Shown: in pieces, positions 17,010-62,653 of the stretch
How positions within the stretch are numbered: position 1 is the first letter of the stretch
How the letters are laid out: the number at the start of each line of letters is the position of its first letter
The notes under the pieces: model-generated
Database searches by the model: none
Seen by the model: only the letters and a program-made list of their open reading frames with translations
What the model was told of the DNA's origin: nothing
Assembly (NCBI RefSeq): GCF_010682065.1
Contig: NZ_JAAGWG010000004.1
Location: 62,001 to 126,000, forward strand
Origin: Blastococcus saxobsidens
Lineage (GTDB): Bacteria; Actinomycetota; Actinomycetes; Mycobacteriales; Geodermatophilaceae
Direction: 5' to 3'
Length of the DNA: 64,000 bases
Position numbers and translations under genes: made by a program

Positions 17010-18656
17010 TCAGCGCGTCGCGACTCCGGCCCGCTCGACGATCCGGGCCACGCCCGCGCCGGCCGGGAGCGTGCCGAGGACCGCGCCGCCGTCGCCGCCC
17101 AGGCGAGAGGCGCAGAACGCCTCGGCGACCTCCGCCGGGGCGTGCCGCAGCAGCAGCGATCCCTGCAGGCACGTCGCCAGCTGCCCGGCGACGCGGCGGG
17201 CCCGGAACGGCAGGCCCTCCCGGTTCCCGAGCTCGGCGGACAGCCGCTCCACGGCGTCGTCGAACCGCCGGTCGGCACCGCGGGCGAGCTCCAGCTCGGC
17301 GGTGACGGCCGCCAGGGACTCCCCGGACCGCTCCAGGGCGCGGAGGACGTCGAGGGCGATGACGTTGCCCGAGCCCTCCCAGATCGAGTTCAGCGGCGCC
17401 TGCCGGTAGAGGCGGGGCAGCCCCGAGTCCTCCACGTACCCGTTGCCGCCCAGCACCTCCATGGCCTCGGCGACGACGCCCGGCGAGCGCTTGCACACCC
17501 AGTACTTGGCCGCGGCGCCCGCCAGCCGCAGGAACGCCGCCTCCCCCGCGTCGACCGCCGCGGCCAGCCGGATCGCCAGTGCCGTGGCGGCCTCGCTCTC
17601 CAGGGCGAGATCGGCCAGCACGTTCTGCATCAGCGGCTGGTCGACCAGCCGGGCCCCGAAGGCGCTCCGGTGCCGGGCGTGGTGGATCGCCTGGGTCAGC
17701 GCGGCGCGGATCGTCGCCGCCGAGCCCAGCACGCAGTCGATGCGGGTCATGTTGACCATCTCGATGATGGCCGGCACCCCCCTGCCCGGTTCGCCGACCA
17801 GCCAGCCGGTGGTGCCCTCGAACTCGACCTCGCTGGAGGCGTTGGACCGGTCACCGAGCTTGTCCTTGAGACGTTGCACGTGGAACACGTTGCGGTCGCC
17901 GTCGGGCAGGACCCGGGGGACGGCGAAGCAGGAGACCCCCTCGTCCAGCTGCGCGAGGACCAGGAACAGGTCGCTCATCGGCGCGCTCGTGAACCACTTG
18001 TGGCCGGTGAGCGCATAGCTGCCGTCGGCCCGCGCGACGGCGCGGGTGGCGTTTGCCCGAACGTCGGAGCCGCCCTGCTTCTCGGTCATGCCCATGCCGG
18101 CGACCAGCCCGGCCTTGCCGGTGGGCTCGGCGAGGCCGAACTGGTAGGCGCGTGCGGTGAGCCCGGCCTCGTACCGCGCCGCCAGCTCGGGAGCCCGGCG
18201 CAGGGCGGGGACGACGGCGTAGGTCATCGTCACCGGGCAGCCGTGACCCATCTCGACCTGGGTCCAGCCGAGATAGCCGACGGCCCGGCGCACGTGGGCG
18301 TGACGGCCCGGGGCGGTGGGGTGGGTGGCCTGCTGAGCGTCGGCCCACGGCGCCCCGGCCAGGCCGTTCTCCACGGCGGTGCGCATCAGGTCGTGCCAGT
18401 GCGGGTGGAACTCCACCTCGTCGATGCGGTGCCCGTAGCGGTCGTGGGTGCGCAGCCGCGGTGGGTTCTCGTTGGCCAGCCGCCCCCACTCCCGGGCCTC
18501 CTCGCTGCCGGCGATCCGGCCCAGCTCGCCGAGCGACTCGAGCGTCGCGGCGTCGGCGTGCCGCAGGCAGGCCTCGGCCAGTGCCGCGTCACCGCCGATG
18601 GGATCGTGCCCGACCAGCGGCGGGACCTGGTTGGTGACCTGGTGGGTGGCAGGCAT
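17010..18656 (-). CDS. AidB-family acyl-CoA dehydrogenase-like flavoprotein
   Basis: A 548-residue member of the acyl-CoA dehydrogenase superfamily, longer than classic members. NQVPPL near the start, the long N-terminal helical region, GMGMTEKQGGSDVRAN in the FAD-binding middle domain, LKDKLGDRSNASSEVEFEG, and IWEGSGNVIALDVLRA in the C-terminal domain are typical of AidB / isovaleryl-CoA-dehydrogenase-like proteins. E. coli AidB protects DNA against alkylation, but many actinobacterial homologues have no proven role. ATG 18656 starts the conserved NQVPPL segment. It appears to be monocistronic. Confidence 0.9.
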   Translation of the reverse strand: MPATHQVTNQVPPLVGHDPIGGDAALAEACLRHADAATLESLGELGRIAGSEEAREWGRLANENPPRLRTHDRYGHRIDEVEFHPHWHDLMRTAVENGLAGAPWADAQQATHPTAPGRHAHVRRAVGYLGWTQVEMGHGCPVTMTYAVVPALRRAPELAARYEAGLTARAYQFGLAEPTGKAGLVAGMGMTEKQGGSDVRANATRAVARADGSYALTGHKWFTSAPMSDLFLVLAQLDEGVSCFAVPRVLPDGDRNVFHVQRLKDKLGDRSNASSEVEFEGTTGWLVGEPGRGVPAIIEMVNMTRIDCVLGSAATIRAALTQAIHHARHRSAFGARLVDQPLMQNVLADLALESEAATALAIRLAAAVDAGEAAFLRLAGAAAKYWVCKRSPGVVAEAMEVLGGNGYVEDSGLPRLYRQAPLNSIWEGSGNVIALDVLRALERSGESLAAVTAELELARGADRRFDDAVERLSAELGNREGLPFRARRVAGQLATCLQGSLLLRHAPAEVAEAFCASRLGGDGGAVLGTLPAGAGVARIVERAGVATR

Positions 18657-18878
18657 GAGCGCACCGTACGTGCCGGTGGGCGTCCCGGAACGGACGGCGC
18701 CGGAGGGGGCCGTTCGGGCGCCCGCCTGGTCGGGACCTCTTCGGTACGCTGCGGTACCAGCCGATTTCGTAACCCTGCGCTATCCCCCGATCCGGTATCC
18801 ATCTGTGACACGCCGCATAAAAATTGCTCGTCGGCTGGCTACTGGTCAGCGGACGAACCGGTTCCTAACGTCCGCCTC

Positions 18879-20036
18879 ATGCCAGGGACCGCGGAGCTCG
18901 ACGACGGCCGGCGGCCGCTCGCGGCTCGCGGGCCGTGGCTCCGGCGAGTGGCTGCGGCGTGCCTCCTGGGCGCCGGCGTGTACGCCGGGATGGCCGTCGG
19001 CACCGACGACGCGGTCCGCGCCGAGGAGGCCCCGTCGGCCACGACCACCCCGGCGGCCGCGCCGGACAGCGACCCAGGGCCCGACGGGTCCACCGGCACC
19101 GCGGGGACGACGTCCTCGCACTCCGGCAGCGCGTCGTCCGCGGGCACGTCGTCCACCTCGTCGAGCGAGCGGTCGTCGACGACGTCGACCACCTCCTCGG
19201 CATCGGGCTCCGCGACGGTGTCGACCACGTCCACCTCGACGGCCACGACGCAGCCGCCGGATGCCACCGCGGCGGGCGGCGAGGGCACCGCCCCCATGAA
19301 CGGAACGCCCGATCCGGCCGGAGCGCCGGCCACGACGACGACCACGAGCACGACGACCACCACCAGCTCCACCACCACCAGCTCCACCACCACGAGCTCC
19401 ACCACCACCAGCTCCACCACCACGATGACGACGACCAGCACGTCGACGGCCACCACCACCCACGGCGGCACGGCGACGACCACGCCGGGCGACGCGACGG
19501 ACGCGACCACGGCCGACAAGGAGCCGTCGACCCCCACCTGCACCACCGACGTCGGCGCGCCGGAACCGGCGCCCACCTGCGGGTCGCTGCCGGCCGGCAC
19601 GGCCACGGCCGTCGGCCCCACCGCGTCGGCCCTCGACTGCGCCCCGGTCCCCGCGTTCGCCGTCTCCGCACCCGGCGACCGGGACACCGGCGTCGCACCG
19701 CCCGCCCGCCCGACGTCGCTCCGCGCGGCCTCGACCGTGACGGCGTCGACCGCGCCCCTCGAGCCGGTCGTGGCAGCGAGGCCGGCGGAGACGCCCCTCG
19801 TCCCGCCCGCGCCGCTCCCCGTCCCCCTCCCGTCGGCGACCGCGGTCAGCGGCCTGACGGCCTGCAGCGGCCAGACCGCCGGACCGGGCCAGCCGCGCAC
19901 CGGCACCTCGTCCGTGGCCGCCGTGCTGCGCTCGGGGTGGGACGTGCCCGGCGACGACAGCAGCAACGAGCGCACGGCGCCGGTGGCGGGATCGACCGCC
20001 ACCTCGGCGACCGACCCCGCCACCCGGCCGGACTGA
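18879..20036 (+). CDS. Secreted Thr/Ser-rich mucin-like protein
   Basis: A 385-residue low-complexity protein. After a short polar start, RGPWLRRVAAACLLGAGVYA (about 19-38) looks like a signal peptide or anchor, followed by a mature part dominated by Thr, Ser, Ala and Pro. Residues about 140-200 are TTTSS-type tandem repeats. There are several cysteines in the C-terminal half and no LPXTG-like motif. It is probably secreted or membrane-tethered and possibly O-mannosylated, as Thr/Ser-rich actinobacterial surface proteins often are (inference). The opposite strand is also open and gives a Val-rich frame, but it lacks a sensible start or signal. It lies upstream of the LAYTG-anchored protein and sortase on the same strand. 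The upstream gap contains an AT-rich CATAAAAATT patch. Family not recognised. Confidence 0.65.
   Translation: MPGTAELDDGRRPLAARGPWLRRVAAACLLGAGVYAGMAVGTDDAVRAEEAPSATTTPAAAPDSDPGPDGSTGTAGTTSSHSGSASSAGTSSTSSSERSSTTSTTSSASGSATVSTTSTSTATTQPPDATAAGGEGTAPMNGTPDPAGAPATTTTTSTTTTTSSTTTSSTTTSSTTTSSTTTMTTTSTSTATTTHGGTATTTPGDATDATTADKEPSTPTCTTDVGAPEPAPTCGSLPAGTATAVGPTASALDCAPVPAFAVSAPGDRDTGVAPPARPTSLRAASTVTASTAPLEPVVAARPAETPLVPPAPLPVPLPSATAVSGLTACSGQTAGPGQPRTGTSSVAAVLRSGWDVPGDDSSNERTAPVAGSTATSATDPATRPD
19330..19450 (+). repeat. ACC/AGC codon tandem repeat inside the Thr-rich gene
   Basis: Imperfect 15-nt units of the form AGCTCCACCACCACC encode TSSTTT runs. Such arrays are prone to slippage, so length may vary between strains. 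Confidence 0.7.
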
Positions 20037-20192
20037 CGCGCCGCCTACGCGGCCCGCGCTGTCCCCAGGTGTGCCACGGGGGGCACATCACCGACCAAGT
20101 GCAGCCGCCCCGCTCGTTCCACCCATTCCATTCACCCGCGCGCCCTGTCCTACCCGTTCGCGGCGCGCACACCCATGAAGGACACGCACACG

Positions 20193-21662
20193 ATGAGACG
20201 ATCCGTACGCAACGGCCTGGCCGTTGCAGGTATGGCCGGAGGAATCCTCTTCCTCGGCCAGGCGGTGGCCAGCGCCTCCGAAGGAGGTGACGCCGGCGTC
20301 AGCGGCAGCAGCAACGCCTCGAGCGGCGTCAGCGCCGAGCACAACGCCACCTCCGCGAACACCAACGAGTCCACGACCACGGGTGGAGCCGGCGGCAGCG
20401 GTCACGCTGACGGTGGCAACGCCGACACCGAGGTCGAGCAGGACAGCGCTGCCGTCAACGACGTGCAGAACGAGTCCCGCTCCGGCAACACGACCGCCAC
20501 CGGCGGCACGTCCTACGTCGTCGTGATCGCCGGCAACGGCAACACCGTCGATGCCGAGAGCGACGACAAGGGCCACGTCGGGGCCACGCAGACCGTCCAC
20601 AACGAGGTCGGGGTCGCCTCCCACGGCGGTTCCGCCGCCGTGAGCGGCAGCAACAACGCCTCGTCCGGCAACGGCGCGCACTACAACGCCGAGTCGGGGA
20701 ACAGCAACGAGTCCACCACCACCGGTGGATCGGGCGGCGGACACGGCGACGGCGGCGACGCCGACACCGACGTCGACCAGGACAGCAGGGCTCGTAACAG
20801 CGTGGACAACTACTCCCGTTCGGGCAACGTCCGCGCCGAGGGTGGCGACTCGCTCGTCGGCGTCCTCGCCGGGAACGGCAACGAGCTCGACGCCGAGAGC
20901 GACGACAAGGGCCACGTCGAGGCAACGCAGACCGTCCACAACGAGGTCGAGGTGGCCTCCCGCGGCGGCTCCGCCGGCGTCAGCGGCAGCAACAACGCCT
21001 CGTCCGGCAACGGCGCGCACTACGACGCCGAGTCCTACAACGACAACGACTCCGAGACCCGCGGCGGCTCGGGCGGGCAGCGTGGCGACGGGGGTGACGC
21101 CGACACCGACATCGACCAGGACAGCAGGGCGCGGAACGAGGCCGACAACGACGCCGAGACGGGCACGGTCGATGCCATCGGCGGCGATTCGATCATCAAG
21201 GTGGTCGTGGGCAACAACAACACGCTCACCTGCACCTCCGAATCGGGCCCCGTCGACTGCGAGCAGCACATCACCAACATCGTCAACATCATCTCGATCG
21301 CCGGTGGTGCCGACGTGGTCTGCTCGAACAACGCCTCGGCCGGTGGCCAGGGCTGGGCCTGCTACCCGAAGCCCAGCGACAAGCCTGCCGAGCAGCCCGC
21401 CCAGCAGCCCGCCCAGCAGCCGGTGGACAAGCCGGTCGCGAAGCCCGTGCACTACGCGGCTCCCGCTCCGGTGCACGCCGTGAAGGCGGCTCCGGCCGCC
21501 TACAGGGCGCCGGTGCAGCAGGCCGCGATGTCGCAGCCCACCGGGCAGCTCGCCTACACCGGCTCCGACGTCTCCGCTCCGCTCGCCCTGGGCCTGCTGG
21601 CCCTCGGTCTGGGTGCCGCGCTGACGCTGGCCGGTCGCCGTCGCTCCACCGCGACGGTCTGA
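20193..21662 (+). CDS. Cell-wall-anchored protein with three 113-residue repeats and LAYTG sorting signal
   Basis: A 489-residue surface protein. The signal peptide MRRSVRNGLAVAGMAGGILF ends near VASA. Three tandem units of 113-114 residues follow (about 35-375), rich in Gly, Asn, Asp and Ser, each with VSGSNNASSGNGAHY-, DADTDVDQDSRARN- and GNGNxxDAESDDKGHV-like blocks; the third diverges and carries cysteines. Then comes a Pro/Gln/Ala stalk (PAEQPAQQPAQQP), the sorting signal LAYTG, a hydrophobic helix and an RRR tail. LAxTG is the motif of class E sortases, and such a sortase is the next gene. ATG 20193 has AAGGA 10 nt upstream; ATG 20175 is in frame but without an RBS. Repeat function unknown; possibly a beta-solenoid adhesive or matrix protein. 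Confidence 0.85.
   Translation: MRRSVRNGLAVAGMAGGILFLGQAVASASEGGDAGVSGSSNASSGVSAEHNATSANTNESTTTGGAGGSGHADGGNADTEVEQDSAAVNDVQNESRSGNTTATGGTSYVVVIAGNGNTVDAESDDKGHVGATQTVHNEVGVASHGGSAAVSGSNNASSGNGAHYNAESGNSNESTTTGGSGGGHGDGGDADTDVDQDSRARNSVDNYSRSGNVRAEGGDSLVGVLAGNGNELDAESDDKGHVEATQTVHNEVEVASRGGSAGVSGSNNASSGNGAHYDAESYNDNDSETRGGSGGQRGDGGDADTDIDQDSRARNEADNDAETGTVDAIGGDSIIKVVVGNNNTLTCTSESGPVDCEQHITNIVNIISIAGGADVVCSNNASAGGQGWACYPKPSDKPAEQPAQQPAQQPVDKPVAKPVHYAAPAPVHAVKAAPAAYRAPVQQAAMSQPTGQLAYTGSDVSAPLALGLLALGLGAALTLAGRRRSTATV
20301..21300 (+). repeat. Three tandem coding repeats, period 339-342 nt
   Basis: The sequence AGCGGCAGCA recurs at 20301, 20643 and 20982, giving spacings of 342 and 339 nt. Copies 2 and 3 are the closest at DNA level, which suggests recent duplication. 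The third copy diverges in its second half. Confidence 0.85.
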
Positions 21663-21666
21663 TCCA

Positions 21667-21704
21667 CCGGCCCGCCGCCCCGAGCACCCCGGGCGGCGGG
21701 CCGG
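21667..21704 (+). terminator. Strong hairpin after the anchored-protein gene
   Basis: A perfect 14-bp stem (CCGGCCCGCCGCCC with its complement) and a 10-nt loop, starting 5 nt after the stop codon. There is no U-tract, as is usual in high-GC actinobacteria. It probably attenuates transcription before the sortase gene. Confidence 0.65.
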
Positions 21705-21715
21705 GCTCCACCTCC

Positions 21716-21752
21716 GACGCCGTCTGCCGGGCGACCCCCGGCAGGCGGCGTC
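21716..21752 (+). terminator. Second strong hairpin before the sortase gene
   Basis: A 16-bp stem with one G-T pair (21716-21731 with 21737-21752) and a 5-nt loop. Together with the previous hairpin it forms a double structure between substrate and sortase genes, either a tandem terminator or an mRNA processing or stability element. Confidence 0.55.
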
Positions 21753-21788
21753 GCCACCCTCCGGCACGACGAGACGGGTTCGGCGGCG

Positions 21789-22634
21789 ATGAGCGCACTC
21801 GACCAGGACGTCCGGCCGGGGCGGACCCGCGCCGTCGGCCGCCCCCCGCGCGGCCGCGACGTGGGCCGCACGCTGGTCCGCGGCACCGGCCAGACCCTGC
21901 TCACCGTCGGCCTGGTTGCGCTGCTGTTCGTCGGCTACGAGCTGTGGGTGACCGACCTCCTCGCCGCCCGGGAGCAGGACCGGCTGACCGAGCAGATCCG
22001 GGACGACTGGGCCGAGGACCCCACGGTCGGCGGCCCCGGCCCGGTGGCCGCGGCGCCTCCCCCCGGCGACGCCCCGGCGCCGGCACCACCGGAGGTCCTC
22101 GACGTGGCCGTCGGCGAACCCTTCGCCGTCCTGCACATCCCGCGCCTGGGCGCGGACTACGAGCGGGTCGTGGTCGAGGGGACGGCCCAGACCCAGCTGG
22201 CCCAGGGCCCCGGCCACTACCTGAGGACGGCGATGCCCGGGGAGCAGGGCAACCTCGCCCTCGCCGGCCACCGCGTCGGCCGGGGCTCGCCGTTCCTCGA
22301 CCTCGACCGGCTGCGCCCCGGGGACCCGATCGTCGTGGAGACCGCCGGGACCTGGTTCGTCTACCGGGTCCTCGGCGCACCCGGCGACCAGGACTTCGCC
22401 GGCGACCCCAGCGGCATCCCCGGCCGCCGGATCGTGCGCCCCACCGACGTCACCGTGCTGTCGCCCACGCCGGGCGGCCCGGCGGGTGGGCCGGCCACCG
22501 GCGCGTTCCTGACGTTGACCACCTGCCACCCGAAGTACTCCGCCGAGCAGCGACTCGTCATCCACGCCCGACTGGACGGGGAGCCGGTGAGCAGGGCGAC
22601 CGCGCCCGACGGGCCCCCGGCCCTGCTCGGCTGA
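21789..22634 (+). CDS. srtE: Class E sortase
   Basis: A 281-residue transpeptidase anchored by one N-terminal helix (TLLTVGLVALLFVGYELW, about 37-54). A proline/alanine linker leads to the catalytic domain (about 105-265). Catalytic His is in LAGHRVG, Cys in TLTTCHPKYSAEQRLV, and Arg in the same segment; TLTTCHP is characteristic of class E. It should cleave LAxTG signals between Thr and Gly and attach proteins to peptidoglycan outside the membrane. The preceding gene encodes an LAYTG protein, the obvious substrate. The Shine-Dalgarno before ATG 21789 is weak. Confidence 0.93.
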   Translation: MSALDQDVRPGRTRAVGRPPRGRDVGRTLVRGTGQTLLTVGLVALLFVGYELWVTDLLAAREQDRLTEQIRDDWAEDPTVGGPGPVAAAPPPGDAPAPAPPEVLDVAVGEPFAVLHIPRLGADYERVVVEGTAQTQLAQGPGHYLRTAMPGEQGNLALAGHRVGRGSPFLDLDRLRPGDPIVVETAGTWFVYRVLGAPGDQDFAGDPSGIPGRRIVRPTDVTVLSPTPGGPAGGPATGAFLTLTTCHPKYSAEQRLVIHARLDGEPVSRATAPDGPPALLG

Positions 22635-22643
22635 GGCCCCCCG

Positions 22644-23027
22644 CTAGCGCACCAGCCGGTGCAGCGCCCACCGCGCCAGCGGCGCGTAGGGGAGCACGAG
22701 CGGCGCCGGGCCGGTGGTGCGCAGGCCGGTCGTCGTGCCGCCGTCCGGGCCGTCGGCGACCCAGTGGTGCAGCCGCATCCGGAGCGGGCCGACGCCGACG
22801 GTCCACGACCACGAGCGGGCAGCGGGGTCGACCGCCTCGATGGTGAACGGCAGCGGCACGCCCAGGCCGCGCACCCGGCCGCGGGCACCGGCGGTCAGCT
22901 CGCGCCGCGAGCACTCGACGCCGGTGATCTGCGGCGCCCACTCCGACCAGCGGTCGAGCAGGCGGTAGCGCTCCCACACCTCCGCCGGCGGCCGCGGCCC
23001 GGTCGCGTGCAGCGTCGTCGTGGTCAT
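22644..23027 (-). CDS. SRPBCC-fold protein, coupled to cinA
   Basis: A 127-residue START/Bet v1-like protein. The start MTTTTLHATGPRPPAEVWERY, then LLDRWSEWAPQITGVE and a C-terminal amphipathic helix, are typical of polyketide-cyclase or SRPBCC lipid-binding folds with a hydrophobic cavity. ATG 23027 overlaps the cinA stop by 4 nt (ATGA). Ligand unknown. A second, unrelated SRPBCC gene at 30.86 kb is likewise overlapped with its upstream gene. Confidence 0.82.
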   Translation of the reverse strand: MTTTTLHATGPRPPAEVWERYRLLDRWSEWAPQITGVECSRRELTAGARGRVRGLGVPLPFTIEAVDPAARSWSWTVGVGPLRMRLHHWVADGPDGGTTTGLRTTGPAPLVLPYAPLARWALHRLVR

Positions 23028-24304
23028 GCCGGCGGTCCGCCGAGCAGCAGCTCGCGCAGCAGGTGCAGGGCCATCGTGACGGTTCGTTCCCGCACCGCCG
23101 ACCGGCTCCCCGGAAGGGCGAGTGCCCGCTCCGCGACCGCGCCCTCGGGCCCCACGACGCACAGGTGCACCGTGCCCACGGGCTTGGCCTCGGTGCCGCC
23201 GCCCGGTCCGGCGACGCCGGTGATGCCCACACCCAGATCGGCGCCGAAGCGGGCGCGCGCACCGTCCGCCAGCGCCCTCGCGACCTCGGGGCTCACGGCG
23301 CCGTGCTCGGCGAGGACGCCCGGATCCACGCCGAGCAGCTGCTGCTTGGCCGTGTTCGCGTAGGCGGTGACTCCACCCAGCACGTACGCGGAGGACCCGG
23401 GGCGCTCGGTGAGCCGGGCCGCCAGGAGACCGCCCGTGCAGGACTCACCGGTGGCGATCGTCAGGCCGCCGTCGGCCAGGGCCGTGGTGACCAGCTCGTC
23501 GAGCGTCGGCCCGGTGGAGAACAGCGTCGTGGCGTACTCCTGCCGGAGCAGGCCGGCGAACCGGTCGTAGGCCGGCTGGGCCTGCGCGGCGAAGCGGGTC
23601 ACGATCTCCAGCTCGCCCTCGCGCAGGCAGGTGGTGACCTCCAGCCCGGCCTGCTCCGGTTCCATCCCGCGGAGGGTGGCGGCCAGCTGGGCCTCGAGCG
23701 TGCCCCAGAGGCGCAGGGTCTCCTGCCGGAGCTCCCCGGCCCCGGCGAGCAGGTCCCGAACGGCCGGAGCCGCCACGGCCGCCGGCCACATCCCGCGCAG
23801 CTCCCCCGGCGGCCCGGGCAGCACGACCACCGGGGGCCCGCCGCGCCCGTCCGCCGGGGGGACGACGAGACCGGGGGCGGTGCCGATCGGCTCCAGCACC
23901 GTGGCACCCGCCGGGACGATGGCCTGCTTGCGCACCCCGGCCGCCGTCGCCGCCGGGTCGGCCGCCCAGCCCCGCCGGGCCATCAGCCGCTCCACCACGG
24001 CGGCCACCCGCTGCTCGAGCGCCGGGTCGACGGCCGACGGCCGGTCCTGGAACTCGGCCACCACCTGGGCGGTGAGGTCGTCGGCGGTGGGTCCGAGCCC
24101 TCCGGTGGTGATCAGCAGGTCGGTGCCGAGCCCGGCCAGGAAGGCCAGGGCGGCCCGGAGGTCGCCCGGCCGGTCGCCCACCAGCACGACGTGCCCGACG
24201 TCGACGCCGAGGCGCCGCAGCTGCTCGGCCAGCCATGGGCCGTTGCGGTCGGGTACCCGCCCGGTGAGCACCTCGGTACCGGTGACGACGATGCCGGCGC
24301 GCAT
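23024..24304 (-). CDS. cinA: CinA: competence/damage-inducible protein, NMN amidase family
   Basis: A 426-residue two-domain protein. The N-terminal MoCF/COG1058 domain (RAGIVVTGTEVLTGRVPDRN, TTGGLGPTADDLT) has ADP-ribose pyrophosphatase activity in characterised homologues. The C-terminal CinA domain (TIATGESCTGGLLAARLTE, GVGITGVAGPGGGTEAKPVGT) deamidates nicotinamide mononucleotide in NAD recycling. ATG 24304 is preferred over GTG 24310, two codons upstream, because homologues begin near RAGIVVTGTE. No recA or pgsA is nearby, unlike the cinA locus in some bacteria. Translation is coupled to the SRPBCC gene. Confidence 0.92.
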   Translation of the reverse strand: MRAGIVVTGTEVLTGRVPDRNGPWLAEQLRRLGVDVGHVVLVGDRPGDLRAALAFLAGLGTDLLITTGGLGPTADDLTAQVVAEFQDRPSAVDPALEQRVAAVVERLMARRGWAADPAATAAGVRKQAIVPAGATVLEPIGTAPGLVVPPADGRGGPPVVVLPGPPGELRGMWPAAVAAPAVRDLLAGAGELRQETLRLWGTLEAQLAATLRGMEPEQAGLEVTTCLREGELEIVTRFAAQAQPAYDRFAGLLRQEYATTLFSTGPTLDELVTTALADGGLTIATGESCTGGLLAARLTERPGSSAYVLGGVTAYANTAKQQLLGVDPGVLAEHGAVSPEVARALADGARARFGADLGVGITGVAGPGGGTEAKPVGTVHLCVVGPEGAVAERALALPGSRSAVRERTVTMALHLLRELLLGGPPA

Positions 24305-24313
24305 GACCACGGC

Positions 24314-60781: not shown

Positions 60782-61441
60782 TCAGGCGATCGCGGAGGAC
60801 AACCGGTGCGCCGCGGCCTCCGCGGCCGCGACGACGTCCTCGTCGGGAGCCAGGCCGCAGGACGCCAGCCAGGTGGCGAGCATCCGGTGGCCGCCCTCGG
60901 TGAGCACCGACTCGGGGTGGAACTGCACGCCCTCGACGGGGAGCTCCCGGTGGCGCAGGGCCATCACCAGCCCCGAGGGGGTGGAGCCGGTCACCTCGAG
61001 CTCGTCGGGCACGGTGGCGGGGTCGACGGCGAGCGAGTGGTAGCGGGTCGCGGTGAACGGCGAGGGCAGTCCGGCGAGCACGCCGGAGCCGCCGTGCACG
61101 ACCTGGCTGGTCTTGCCGTGCAGCAGCTCGGGGGCGCGGACGACCTCGGCGCCGAACGCCTCGGCGATCGCCTGGTGCCCCAGGCAGACCCCGAGGACCG
61201 GCGTCCCCCGCTCGGCGGCGGCCCGCACCATCGGCACGGTGACGCCGGCATCGGCGGGGGTGCCCGGCCCGGGGGAGAGCAGCACGCCGGCGACGTCGAG
61301 ATCGGCCAGCTCGTCCACGCCGACGGCGTCGTTGCGCCGCACCACGCAGCGCACACCCAGCTGGCCGAGGTACTGCACCAGGTTGTAGACGAAGCTGTCG
61401 AAGTTGTCGACGACGAGGACCGGGCGGTCGGCGGTGGTCAT
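60782..61441 (-). CDS. pabA: Glutamine amidotransferase subunit (PabA/TrpG)
   Basis: A 219-residue class I amidotransferase: VVDNFDSFVYNLVQYLG, SPGPGTP, the nucleophile Cys in LGVCLGHQAIAE, and HPESVLTEGG with the catalytic His-Glu. It supplies ammonia to aminodeoxychorismate synthase (folate) or anthranilate synthase (tryptophan); the gene beside pknB in actinobacteria is often amphibolic. ATG 61441. No component I gene is adjacent. Confidence 0.93.
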   Translation of the reverse strand: MTTADRPVLVVDNFDSFVYNLVQYLGQLGVRCVVRRNDAVGVDELADLDVAGVLLSPGPGTPADAGVTVPMVRAAAERGTPVLGVCLGHQAIAEAFGAEVVRAPELLHGKTSQVVHGGSGVLAGLPSPFTATRYHSLAVDPATVPDELEVTGSTPSGLVMALRHRELPVEGVQFHPESVLTEGGHRMLATWLASCGLAPDEDVVAAAEAAAHRLSSAIA

Positions 61442-61502
61442 CGCGGTCGGTCGCTCCTCGCTCGTCGGGTCGCCCCTGCCCGTCCCGGCGGCGGGAGGCC
61501 GG

Positions 61503-62252
61503 TCAGCCGGTGGACGCGTACTGCAGGGTGAGGCCGCCATCGTAGGCGGGCACCGTGACCGAGGGCCGCTCCCGTACCTCGAACGTGAGCCCGAAGGACG
61601 CCACGGCCTCGCGGAACACCGCCACCTGCGGGGAGTCGGCCAGCGTCCCGCGCAGCGCGGAGGCGTCGACGACGGCCGACACCACGAACGGCGGGGAGTA
61701 GGTGCGTCCCTGGAGCAGCAGGGTGTTGCCGACGCACCGGACGGCGCTGGTGGAGATGAGCCGCTGGTCCATGACGGCCACGCCGTCGGCCCCGGCGGCC
61801 CAGACGGCGTTCACGACCGCCTGGACGTCGCTCTGGTGGATGACGACGTCATCGGGCCGGGCACCCCCCGGCAGGCTGCGGTCGGGGCGCTGAGGGGCGT
61901 CGTCGAGGGTGATGACGACCCCGGCGCCGCTCACCGGCGTCAGCCCGGCCCCGGCTGCCCCGGCCGCGCCGTCGGCCTGGGCCTCGGCGACGGCGCCGTC
62001 GATCGTGGCCGCCTCCTCCGTCAGGTCCTGCACCTGCCGCTCCAGCTGGGTCAGCTGCTGCGCCTGGCGGGCGACCGCGGCATCCCGCTCCCGGATGAGC
62101 TCGGAGAGCTGGGTGACCTCACCGGCGCGCAGGTCCGTGCCCTGGGCGGTGCTGCCCGAGGTGGCGAACAGCAGGCCGGCGGCCAGGGCGACGACGGGCA
62201 CCAGGGCGCTCCAGGCGGAGGGGCGCGCACGCCGGAGCACGGACCTGGCCAC
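61503..62252 (-). CDS. DUF881 membrane protein
   Basis: A 249-residue protein. One N-terminal helix (SALVPVVALAAGLLFATSG), a coiled-coil (about 45-85: RERDAAVARQAQQLTQLERQ), and a DUF881 domain (about 95-248: SGAGVVITLDDAP, VIHQSDVQAVVNAVWAAGAD, VGNTLLLQGRTYSPPF). Conserved next to crgA and pknB (Mtb Rv0012 position) and coupled to division in location; role not established. GTG 62252 with AGGAGG 5 nt upstream. It is divergent from crgA. Confidence 0.9.
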   Translation of the reverse strand: MARSVLRRARPSAWSALVPVVALAAGLLFATSGSTAQGTDLRAGEVTQLSELIRERDAAVARQAQQLTQLERQVQDLTEEAATIDGAVAEAQADGAAGAAGAGLTPVSGAGVVITLDDAPQRPDRSLPGGARPDDVVIHQSDVQAVVNAVWAAGADGVAVMDQRLISTSAVRCVGNTLLLQGRTYSPPFVVSAVVDASALRGTLADSPQVAVFREAVASFGLTFEVRERPSVTVPAYDGGLTLQYASTG

Positions 62253-62320
62253 GGGCACCTCCTCGCCGCGACGCGGTACCGGTCGGGTGAGGAGTCCGGC
62301 GTCCGCGTTCCCCCGAAGTT

Positions 62321-62326
62321 TAGGCT
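62321..62326 (+). promoter_or_regulatory. Possible -10 hexamer for crgA
   Basis: TAGGCT in the DUF881-crgA divergent gap, 55 nt before the crgA GTG, identical to the hexamer upstream of pknB. Confidence 0.35.
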
Positions 62327-62380
62327 GGGGTGCAATCACGGCCGGGGAGGACGAGCCCGGCCCCCCGGAGGGAGTACGCG

Positions 62381-62653
62381 GTGCCCAAGTCCAAGGTGCG
62401 CAAGAAGTCGGTGTACACACCGCCGGAGGACGCGCTCCGCTCGCGGGGTGCCCAGGCCAAGGTGCTGCAGCCCAGCCCTCGCTGGTACGTCGCGCTCATG
62501 GTGGGGCTGATGCTGGTCGGCCTGCTGTGGATCGTCGTCTACTACGTGGCCGGTGACCGCATCCCGTTCATGGTGTCGCTGTCGGCCTGGAACTTCGCCA
62601 TCGGCTTCGGCGCGATGGTGGCCGGCCTGATCATGTCGATGCGCTGGCGCTGA
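62381..62653 (+). CDS. crgA: CrgA cell-division protein
   Basis: A 90-residue protein with a basic N-terminus (PKSKVRKKS) and two helices (WYVALMVGLMLVGLLWIVVY and FAIGFGAMVAGLIMSM). CrgA is an actinobacterial divisome factor that interacts with FtsZ, FtsQ, FtsI and FtsW-type proteins. Length and topology are normal. GTG 62381 with GGAGGGAG about 8 nt upstream. It is followed by a terminator. Confidence 0.96.
   Translation: MPKSKVRKKSVYTPPEDALRSRGAQAKVLQPSPRWYVALMVGLMLVGLLWIVVYYVAGDRIPFMVSLSAWNFAIGFGAMVAGLIMSMRWR

Follow-up and report, generated by a model that had tools for sequence, protein, structure and literature searches.

Three co-directional genes on the + strand of the window, the 64,000-nucleotide stretch of Blastococcus saxobsidens DNA analyzed here, probably form one surface-display cassette, in which a class E sortase would anchor a variable acidic protein on the cell wall and a Thr-rich protein would act as its secreted partner. 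In their order along the DNA, we refer to them as ThrP (the secreted Thr/Ser-rich protein), LayP (the LAYTG protein), and SrtE (the class E sortase). An earlier note made from the same sequence had described this three-gene module, and our analysis confirmed its coordinates, its genes, the class of the sortase, and the presence of the repeat. The start of LayP is probably the ATG at 20193 (MRRSVRNGLA...), which agrees with the start pattern of its relatives, and not position 20175. In the following, G numbers denote the genomes of relatives, L numbers denote loci, and g1 and g2 are the two closest genera.

We found the cassette in 20 of the 39 genomes of g1 and g2, while the other 19 sites, all of which were read, lacked ThrP, anchored LayP, and the sortase. 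Thus, the whole set is missing at these sites, and it behaves as one cassette. The earlier note had made its module depend on the co-occurrence of the three genes in relatives, and this is what the joint presence and joint absence demonstrate. LayP was present in all 20 cassette genomes, the cassette-type sortase was detected in 19 by a high-scoring match and in G002 as a piece cut off by the end of the contig, and ThrP was found in 19, the contig of G033 stopping before it. Contig breaks inside or beside the cassette occur in G002, G015, G033, and G037. Wherever the contigs show it, the cassette of both genera lies between cinA and the gene for an AidB-like dehydrogenase. The 19 cassette-free sites have cinA and the dehydrogenase in place, or the next gene in line where the dehydrogenase was uncalled (G004 and G021); in G016, the dehydrogenase call was partial. 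A search for CinA covered 32 genomes; 20 of these loci, plus two more, were retrieved. A Fisher test on the 20/19 table, which ignores relatedness, gave 1.5e-11. On a cinA tree of 38 rows, consisting of two outgroups and 36 g1/g2 genomes (19 of the 20 with the cassette, all but G002, and 17 of the 19 without it, all but G032 and G036), the cassette label needed seven changes, at least six of them forced by well-supported branches. Shuffling on this tree gave a mean of 12.9 changes, with a single one of the 500 shuffles needing no more than seven.

The closest named relatives are Blastococcus, as are 17 of the 18 named relatives carrying the locus. The record of locus L068 is labeled Bacillus sp. 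AZ43 (unverified); because it carries a Blastococcus-type locus, this label is doubtful. At the cassette-free site of G026 (L089:5944-8933), we observed a 366-residue Asn/Gln-rich repeat protein and a 561-residue protein. The 366-residue protein is encoded on the opposite strand, has no anchor, and contains GDYCKK like an unanchored LayP copy of G031; its composition is LayP-like, yet it gave no BLAST hit to the proteins of the window. Across the family, ThrP profile matches (E <= 1e-10) occurred in 25 of 112 genomes from three genera, each of which also had a LayP or LayP-like match. The LayP profile matched in 45 of the 112, a count inflated by anchor-only matches in g3, g8, g9, and g11, and when it was run against 298 genomes of the order, the matches listed outside the family mostly covered the C-terminal anchor or the Pro-rich part.

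The enzyme and its neighbor carry matching features. SrtE scored 241.5 bits against the NCBIfam model class_E_sortase NF033747 (cut-off of 160), and its H161, C246, R255, and Y144 align with 5cuw and are invariant in all 18 cassette sortases aligned. Tyr144, Cys246, and Arg255 correspond to Tyr229, Cys320, and Arg329 of Streptomyces coelicolor SrtE1, in which Tyr229 (β3/β4) has been proposed to favor Ala in LAXTG (PMC5148588). LayP, as read from its sequence, has all features of a LAXTG substrate, that is, a signal peptide, the pentapeptide LAYTG, a hydrophobic segment, and a basic tail (RRR); the models NF058583 and NF058582 match its C terminus with scores under their cut-offs. The claim that a class E sortase adjoins a matching LAYTG substrate was therefore borne out, and LayP is likely to be anchored by SrtE. 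For comparison, we assembled 29 LayPs from 19 g1/g2 cassette genomes and two g8 genomes, one unanchored copy from G031 included. The set does not contain the LayP of G037, which is split over contigs, or the third copy of G015, for which no start was found. An anchor was present in 28 of the 29, as LAxTG in 27 and as LAYTR in one.

The cassette sortases are monophyletic and separate from the sortases taken from other loci, with support of 99/99 in a 44-row tree (19 cassette rows) and 99/98 in a 28-row tree (11 cassette rows). Both trees were built without G002 (contig end); g3x_G046 is in the 44-row tree, and crgA_G104 was added in the 28-row tree. The source genome has sortase domains at six places. 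At one of them, on contig C14 (L096:4520-7127), another sortase adjoins a LANTG protein that contains an fn3 domain; the same locus pairs sortases with LAxTG proteins in several relatives. A sortase beside a substrate is therefore not unique to the cassette. The order of the two genes, LANTG protein then sortase, resembles that of LayP and SrtE; the C14 locus differs in the fn3 domain of its substrate, in its sortases, which fall in other clades, and in that no ThrP match was seen alongside. Thus, the earlier idea of a dedicated anchoring enzyme is overstated, as SrtE is not the sole sortase of the genome.

Next to these conserved features stands a repetitive and highly divergent middle of LayP. 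Within residues 51 to 393, the identity of LayP with itself at lag 113 is 0.552, and the next best lag reaches 0.158. Because the largest identity among 500 shuffles over all lags from 20 to 199 was 0.203, the 113-residue period is far from chance. Repeat 3 shares 38 of 113 residues with repeat 2 in an ungapped comparison. A period of 108 to 125 residues is kept in all eight proteins of the window's LayP type, which also have many invariant columns. At the thresholds used, the repeat falls in no Pfam or NCBIfam family, in agreement with the earlier note, which had placed it outside the families known to its author.

Over the 153 pairs of 18 genomes, the mean identity was 81% for the LayP signal, 73% for the sortase domain, and 70% for the LayP anchor, as compared to 38% for the LayP middle. 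Shuffled middles gave a mean of 25.7% and a maximum of 32.1% in 60 trials; the pairwise comparison took the best-matching LayP copy per pair, and the shuffle control took the first copy. Four pairs have 86% identical sortases, and in three of these (G025/G029, G033/G034, and G030/G033), the middles are only 31 to 33% identical, with signal and anchor at 76 to 86%. When linked by BLAST (at 40% identity over 80 residues), the 29 proteins fall into 11 LayP types, and tandem copies, two or three, are found in G006, G015, G025, G030, and G031. In these comparisons, LayP is a protein of constant ends and a replaceable middle, which is a new point. It extends the "repeat-variable" description of the earlier note: the whole middle, beyond the copy number, changes among many close relatives. 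The types have their composition in common, with 59 to 84% Gly/Asn/Ser/Thr/Asp/Ala and a net acidic charge in all 29. They also share a Cys-x(3-14)-Cys element, found in 28 of the 29, namely, in all 28 anchored proteins, and lacking in the single unanchored copy. In 26 LayPs, the first Cys pair lies at 0.51 to 0.79 of the distance to the anchor, which in the window's type is the last repeat; two g8 LayPs have Cys pairs at several places, from 0.33 and 0.43 onward.

ThrP contains 86 Thr and 52 Ser among its 385 residues, and its middle (residues 51 to 205) is 37% Thr and 23% Ser. Its signal peptide, read by eye, and its C-terminal block, with DPATRPD as the final residues, are conserved among the 12 proteins aligned. 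A motif filter identified ThrP in the + frame in 18 of 19 loci, and reading the frames by eye identified it in the 19th (G023). A simple codon-usage caller chose an antisense open reading frame (18839-20023, - strand) over ThrP in the window and did likewise in several relatives. Because the wobble base is common to both frames, the antisense frame would predict more changes at codon position 2 than at position 1 of ThrP. We found the opposite: in all 11 pairs (not all of them independent), changes were more frequent at position 1 than at position 2. This, together with the conserved ends of the + frame, led us to reject the antisense reading. The rates of change were 0.380, 0.285, and 0.328 at positions 1, 2, and 3; position 3 is thus not the fastest overall, unlike in an ordinary gene, which speaks against a textbook coding pattern.

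The 3' end of LayP is conserved at the RNA level as well. A GC-rich hairpin follows the stop codon in all 27 LayP genes examined (G033, G037, and the third copies of G015 and G031 are outside this set), mostly at 4 nucleotides and always less than about 20 nucleotides away. Of the 12 consensus pairs in the hairpin alignment, 6 are changed on both sides in one or more sequences. Folding of nine gaps between LayP and SrtE showed a second hairpin ahead of SrtE in each, and the folded stretches had z-scores between -3.8 and -9.2, as compared to -0.4 for the window's gap upstream of LayP.

Table 1. Features of the cassette, its flanks, and a gene pair beside ThrP in relatives. Positions are those of the window unless a locus is given.
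Feature	Position	Strand	Basis or remark
AidB-like acyl-CoA dehydrogenase, left flank (fixed site)	17010..18656	-	Locus comparison and family scan
ThrP	18879..20036	+	Signal peptide, Thr/Ser-rich middle, conserved C-terminal block; without sorting signal
LayP	20193..21662	+	Signal peptide, 113-residue Gly/Asn/Asp/Ser repeats, Pro-rich stalk, LAYTG sorting signal
LayP signal peptide, residues 1-28, kept across LayP types	20193..20276	+	Cleavage site read by eye
LayP repeat 1, 113 residues	20412..20750	+	
LayP repeat 2, 113 residues, 84/113 identical to repeat 1	20751..21089	+	
LayP repeat 3, diverged copy closest to the anchor, four Cys	21090..21374	+	
Cys-x8-Cys element within the last LayP repeat	21231..21260	+	
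LayP Pro/Gln/Ala/Lys-rich stalk, presumed to span the wall	21375..21548	+	
LAYTG sorting motif, then hydrophobic segment and RRR	21549..21563	+	
GC-rich RNA hairpin, 4 nucleotides past the LayP stop codon	21667..21704	+	
Second strong hairpin, LayP-SrtE gap	21716..21752	+	
SrtE, class E sortase	21789..22634	+	N-terminal hydrophobic helix; His161, Cys246, Arg255, Tyr144
Polyketide_cyc2 (SRPBCC) protein, right flank, in some genomes only	22644..23027	-	
CinA, right flank	23024..24310	-	
RHH-Doc-like pair beside ThrP	L038:9728-10326; also L040, L042, L047, L049 and g8 loci L053, L054, L127-L129		Two genera, different sites

In the cassette as we picture it from these sequences, LayP and ThrP would be exported via the general secretory pathway, and membrane-held SrtE would cut LayP between Thr and Gly of LAYTG and link it to the cell wall. 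The Pro-rich stalk would then span the wall and leave the acidic Gly/Asn/Asp-rich repeats exposed, with the Cys element close to the anchor probably stiffening the base. ThrP, secreted and anchor-free, resembles an O-glycosylated mucin-like protein and may be the partner of LayP. The two hairpins past the LayP stop codon probably reduce read-through, so that LayP would be made in large and SrtE in small amounts. Among many close relatives, the exposed repeats are of different kinds, while ends and sortase remain similar; this would fit a coat or adhesin at the surface on which selection by the substrate, neighbors, or phages keeps changing. As to what LayP does at the surface, a polymer, adhesive, or protective role would be a guess.

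Two alternatives concern the nature of the LayP middle. It might form an amyloid-like or β-solenoid fiber comparable to curli and chaplins, a surface matrix held at its base by SrtE; we regard this as rather doubtful. The alternation of polar and nonpolar residues is compatible with β strands, without proving a fold: of the 29 LayPs, whose rows are not independent, 26 have a z above zero for the hydropathy autocorrelation at lag 2, another has 0.0, and 16 reach z >= 2. GN and NN turns recur in the repeats, and β strands are the only secondary structure in both AlphaFold2 models, at a confidence too low to use. Mean pLDDT was 31 for the whole LayP and 29 for two repeats, with no residue above 50 in either, and the matrix polymer and β-solenoid suggested by the earlier note are thus not demonstrated by these predictions. 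A PDB profile search with LayP returned nothing at E <= 1. In Pfam scans, the chaplin family gave no match at E <= 1 in eight A1 members or at E <= 0.1 in 10 other LayPs, and the curlin repeat family gave none among the LayPs scanned at the same thresholds; HMMER filters drop most weak matches in such scans. We therefore rejected LayP as a member of either family. In contrast to chaplins, LayP is acidic and hydrophilic: V/I/L/M/F/Y/W make up 12 to 17% of the window's LayP type, which falls short of a chaplin hydrophobic domain, and its net charge is -30 to -86. The other alternative, which we consider just as doubtful, is that the middle is a disordered, weakly constrained spacer whose low-complexity sequence drifts neutrally, anchoring alone being what matters. 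The composition, the pLDDT of about 30, and the near-shuffled identity between LayP types would agree with such a spacer, and divergence of low-complexity repeats could indeed reflect weak constraint. However, neither the period and invariant columns kept throughout the window's type nor the Cys element kept across types would be expected of it.

Two further alternatives concern the unit as a whole. The cassette might be a selfish or defence-like mobile unit, with the surface genes as cargo of an RHH-Doc toxin-antitoxin pair. Homologues of an RHH-Doc-like pair flank five g2 cassettes beside ThrP, and RHH-like and Doc/Fic-like genes adjoin ThrP-LayP in all five g8 loci read; moreover, the cinA tree points to repeated gain or loss. 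However, no RHH or Doc match was found in the window or in the remaining trio loci, and the site is identical in both close genera wherever a contig shows it, which makes this reading very unlikely. Among the four Doc-like proteins scanned, three matched Fic below the Pfam cut-off and one gave no match; one of three RHH-like proteins scanned gave a weak match. It is also unlikely that SrtE is a relocated housekeeping sortase of the crgA-DUF881 locus, serving many substrates and merely adjacent to LayP. As the earlier note had remarked, the crgA-DUF881-GATase-PASTA kinase locus of this genome (window 60782-62653) is without a sortase, and a sortase is found at the crgA locus, with neighbor genes recognized by resemblance, in G075, G076, and G082 (g8), G065 (g4), and G104 (g9). 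However, the cassette sortase is missing along with ThrP and LayP in 19 genomes, and cassette and crgA-locus sortases group separately in the trees, where deep branches are weak, so that the trees do not support relocation.

Besides the low model confidence and the possible weak constraint on the repeats, several observations weigh against the cassette as we read it. In the five g8 genomes (G075, G076, G077, G078, and G082), ThrP-LayP lies at another site with no sortase in the stretch covered. Thus, ThrP-LayP can exist without an adjacent sortase, and the "self-contained" module of the earlier note describes the 20 trio genomes of g1 and g2 but not the g8 pairs. The LayP of G013 (L041:7117-8439) has LAYTR in place of LAYTG, so that its signal may be altered or decayed, and the third LayP copy of G031 (L046:9618-11171) has a signal peptide and repeats, has no anchor and no Cys pair, and ends in GDYCKKTV. 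The middle is not always exchanged: the window and G008, the fourth pair with 86% identical sortases, share the LayP type with 66% identical middles, and other same-type pairs reach 70% (G006/G015) and 74% (G001/G013). The counts of the Cys element were made without a shuffled control. Many gene ends in the window have strong hairpins, that of LayP ranking 6th of 55, and the weakest LayP hairpin, of the g8 copy in L053, has -27.6 kcal/mol, about the median of these 55 gene ends (-28.1). Because of this, control of read-through is only a suggestion, and our scan detected no promoter-like or U-tailed terminator site.

In pilus clusters with class C sortases, the sortase gene also lies beside its substrate; the cassette differs in having a class E enzyme, a single sortase, and a secreted Thr-rich partner. 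To our knowledge, few class E sortase substrates have been characterized. They include the chaplins, SspA, and CwpA/CwpB (PMC5148588, PMC13251363). Streptomyces SrtE1/SrtE2 and the long chaplins ChpA-C resemble SrtE and LayP in the class E sortase, the LAXTG signal, and a β-rich exposed region with GN turns and Cys (PMC5148588, PMC13251363). Unlike ChpA-C, LayP is acidic and hydrophilic and without a match to chaplin models; it also varies in kind among relatives and has its own sortase next to it. In Actinoplanes missouriensis, a class E sortase like SrtE is needed for the localization of SspA and has been linked to CwpA and CwpB, surface proteins with low similarity to chaplins; there, the genes for sortase and substrates are apart from each other in the genome, except that cwpA and cwpB form an operon, in contrast to their adjacency here. 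The accessible portion of that report mentions neither a ThrP nor a pattern of constant ends and variable middle (PMC13251363). Our literature searches, for which subscription journals were mostly out of reach, found nothing on sortase in Blastococcus or Geodermatophilaceae and no description of ThrP, LayP, or this module. Sortase-substrate pairs as such are already known; what appears new is that the three genes are present or absent together, that the LayP middle is replaceable, that a Cys element and a hairpin are shared across LayP types, and that there is a link to a toxin-antitoxin pair.

These threads can be joined in a broader proposal, which we put forward as speculative and, taken as a whole, improbable. 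The signal, the anchor, the Cys element at the base, the 3' hairpin, and the class E sortase would be the fixed parts, and the exposed repeat block would be exchanged as a whole from lineage to lineage and also multiplied in tandem (to two or three copies, of which one was anchorless), altering surface identity toward phages or neighbors. In some lineages, a Doc-like toxin-antitoxin pair would have contributed to keeping the cassette.

Since enzyme, substrate, and partner lie at one locus, the substrate served by SrtE could be tested with one deletion. Blastococcus is a stone- and soil-dwelling actinobacterium, and if the exchange of the LayP middle is adaptive, the cassette would represent a surface-variation system in such an organism.

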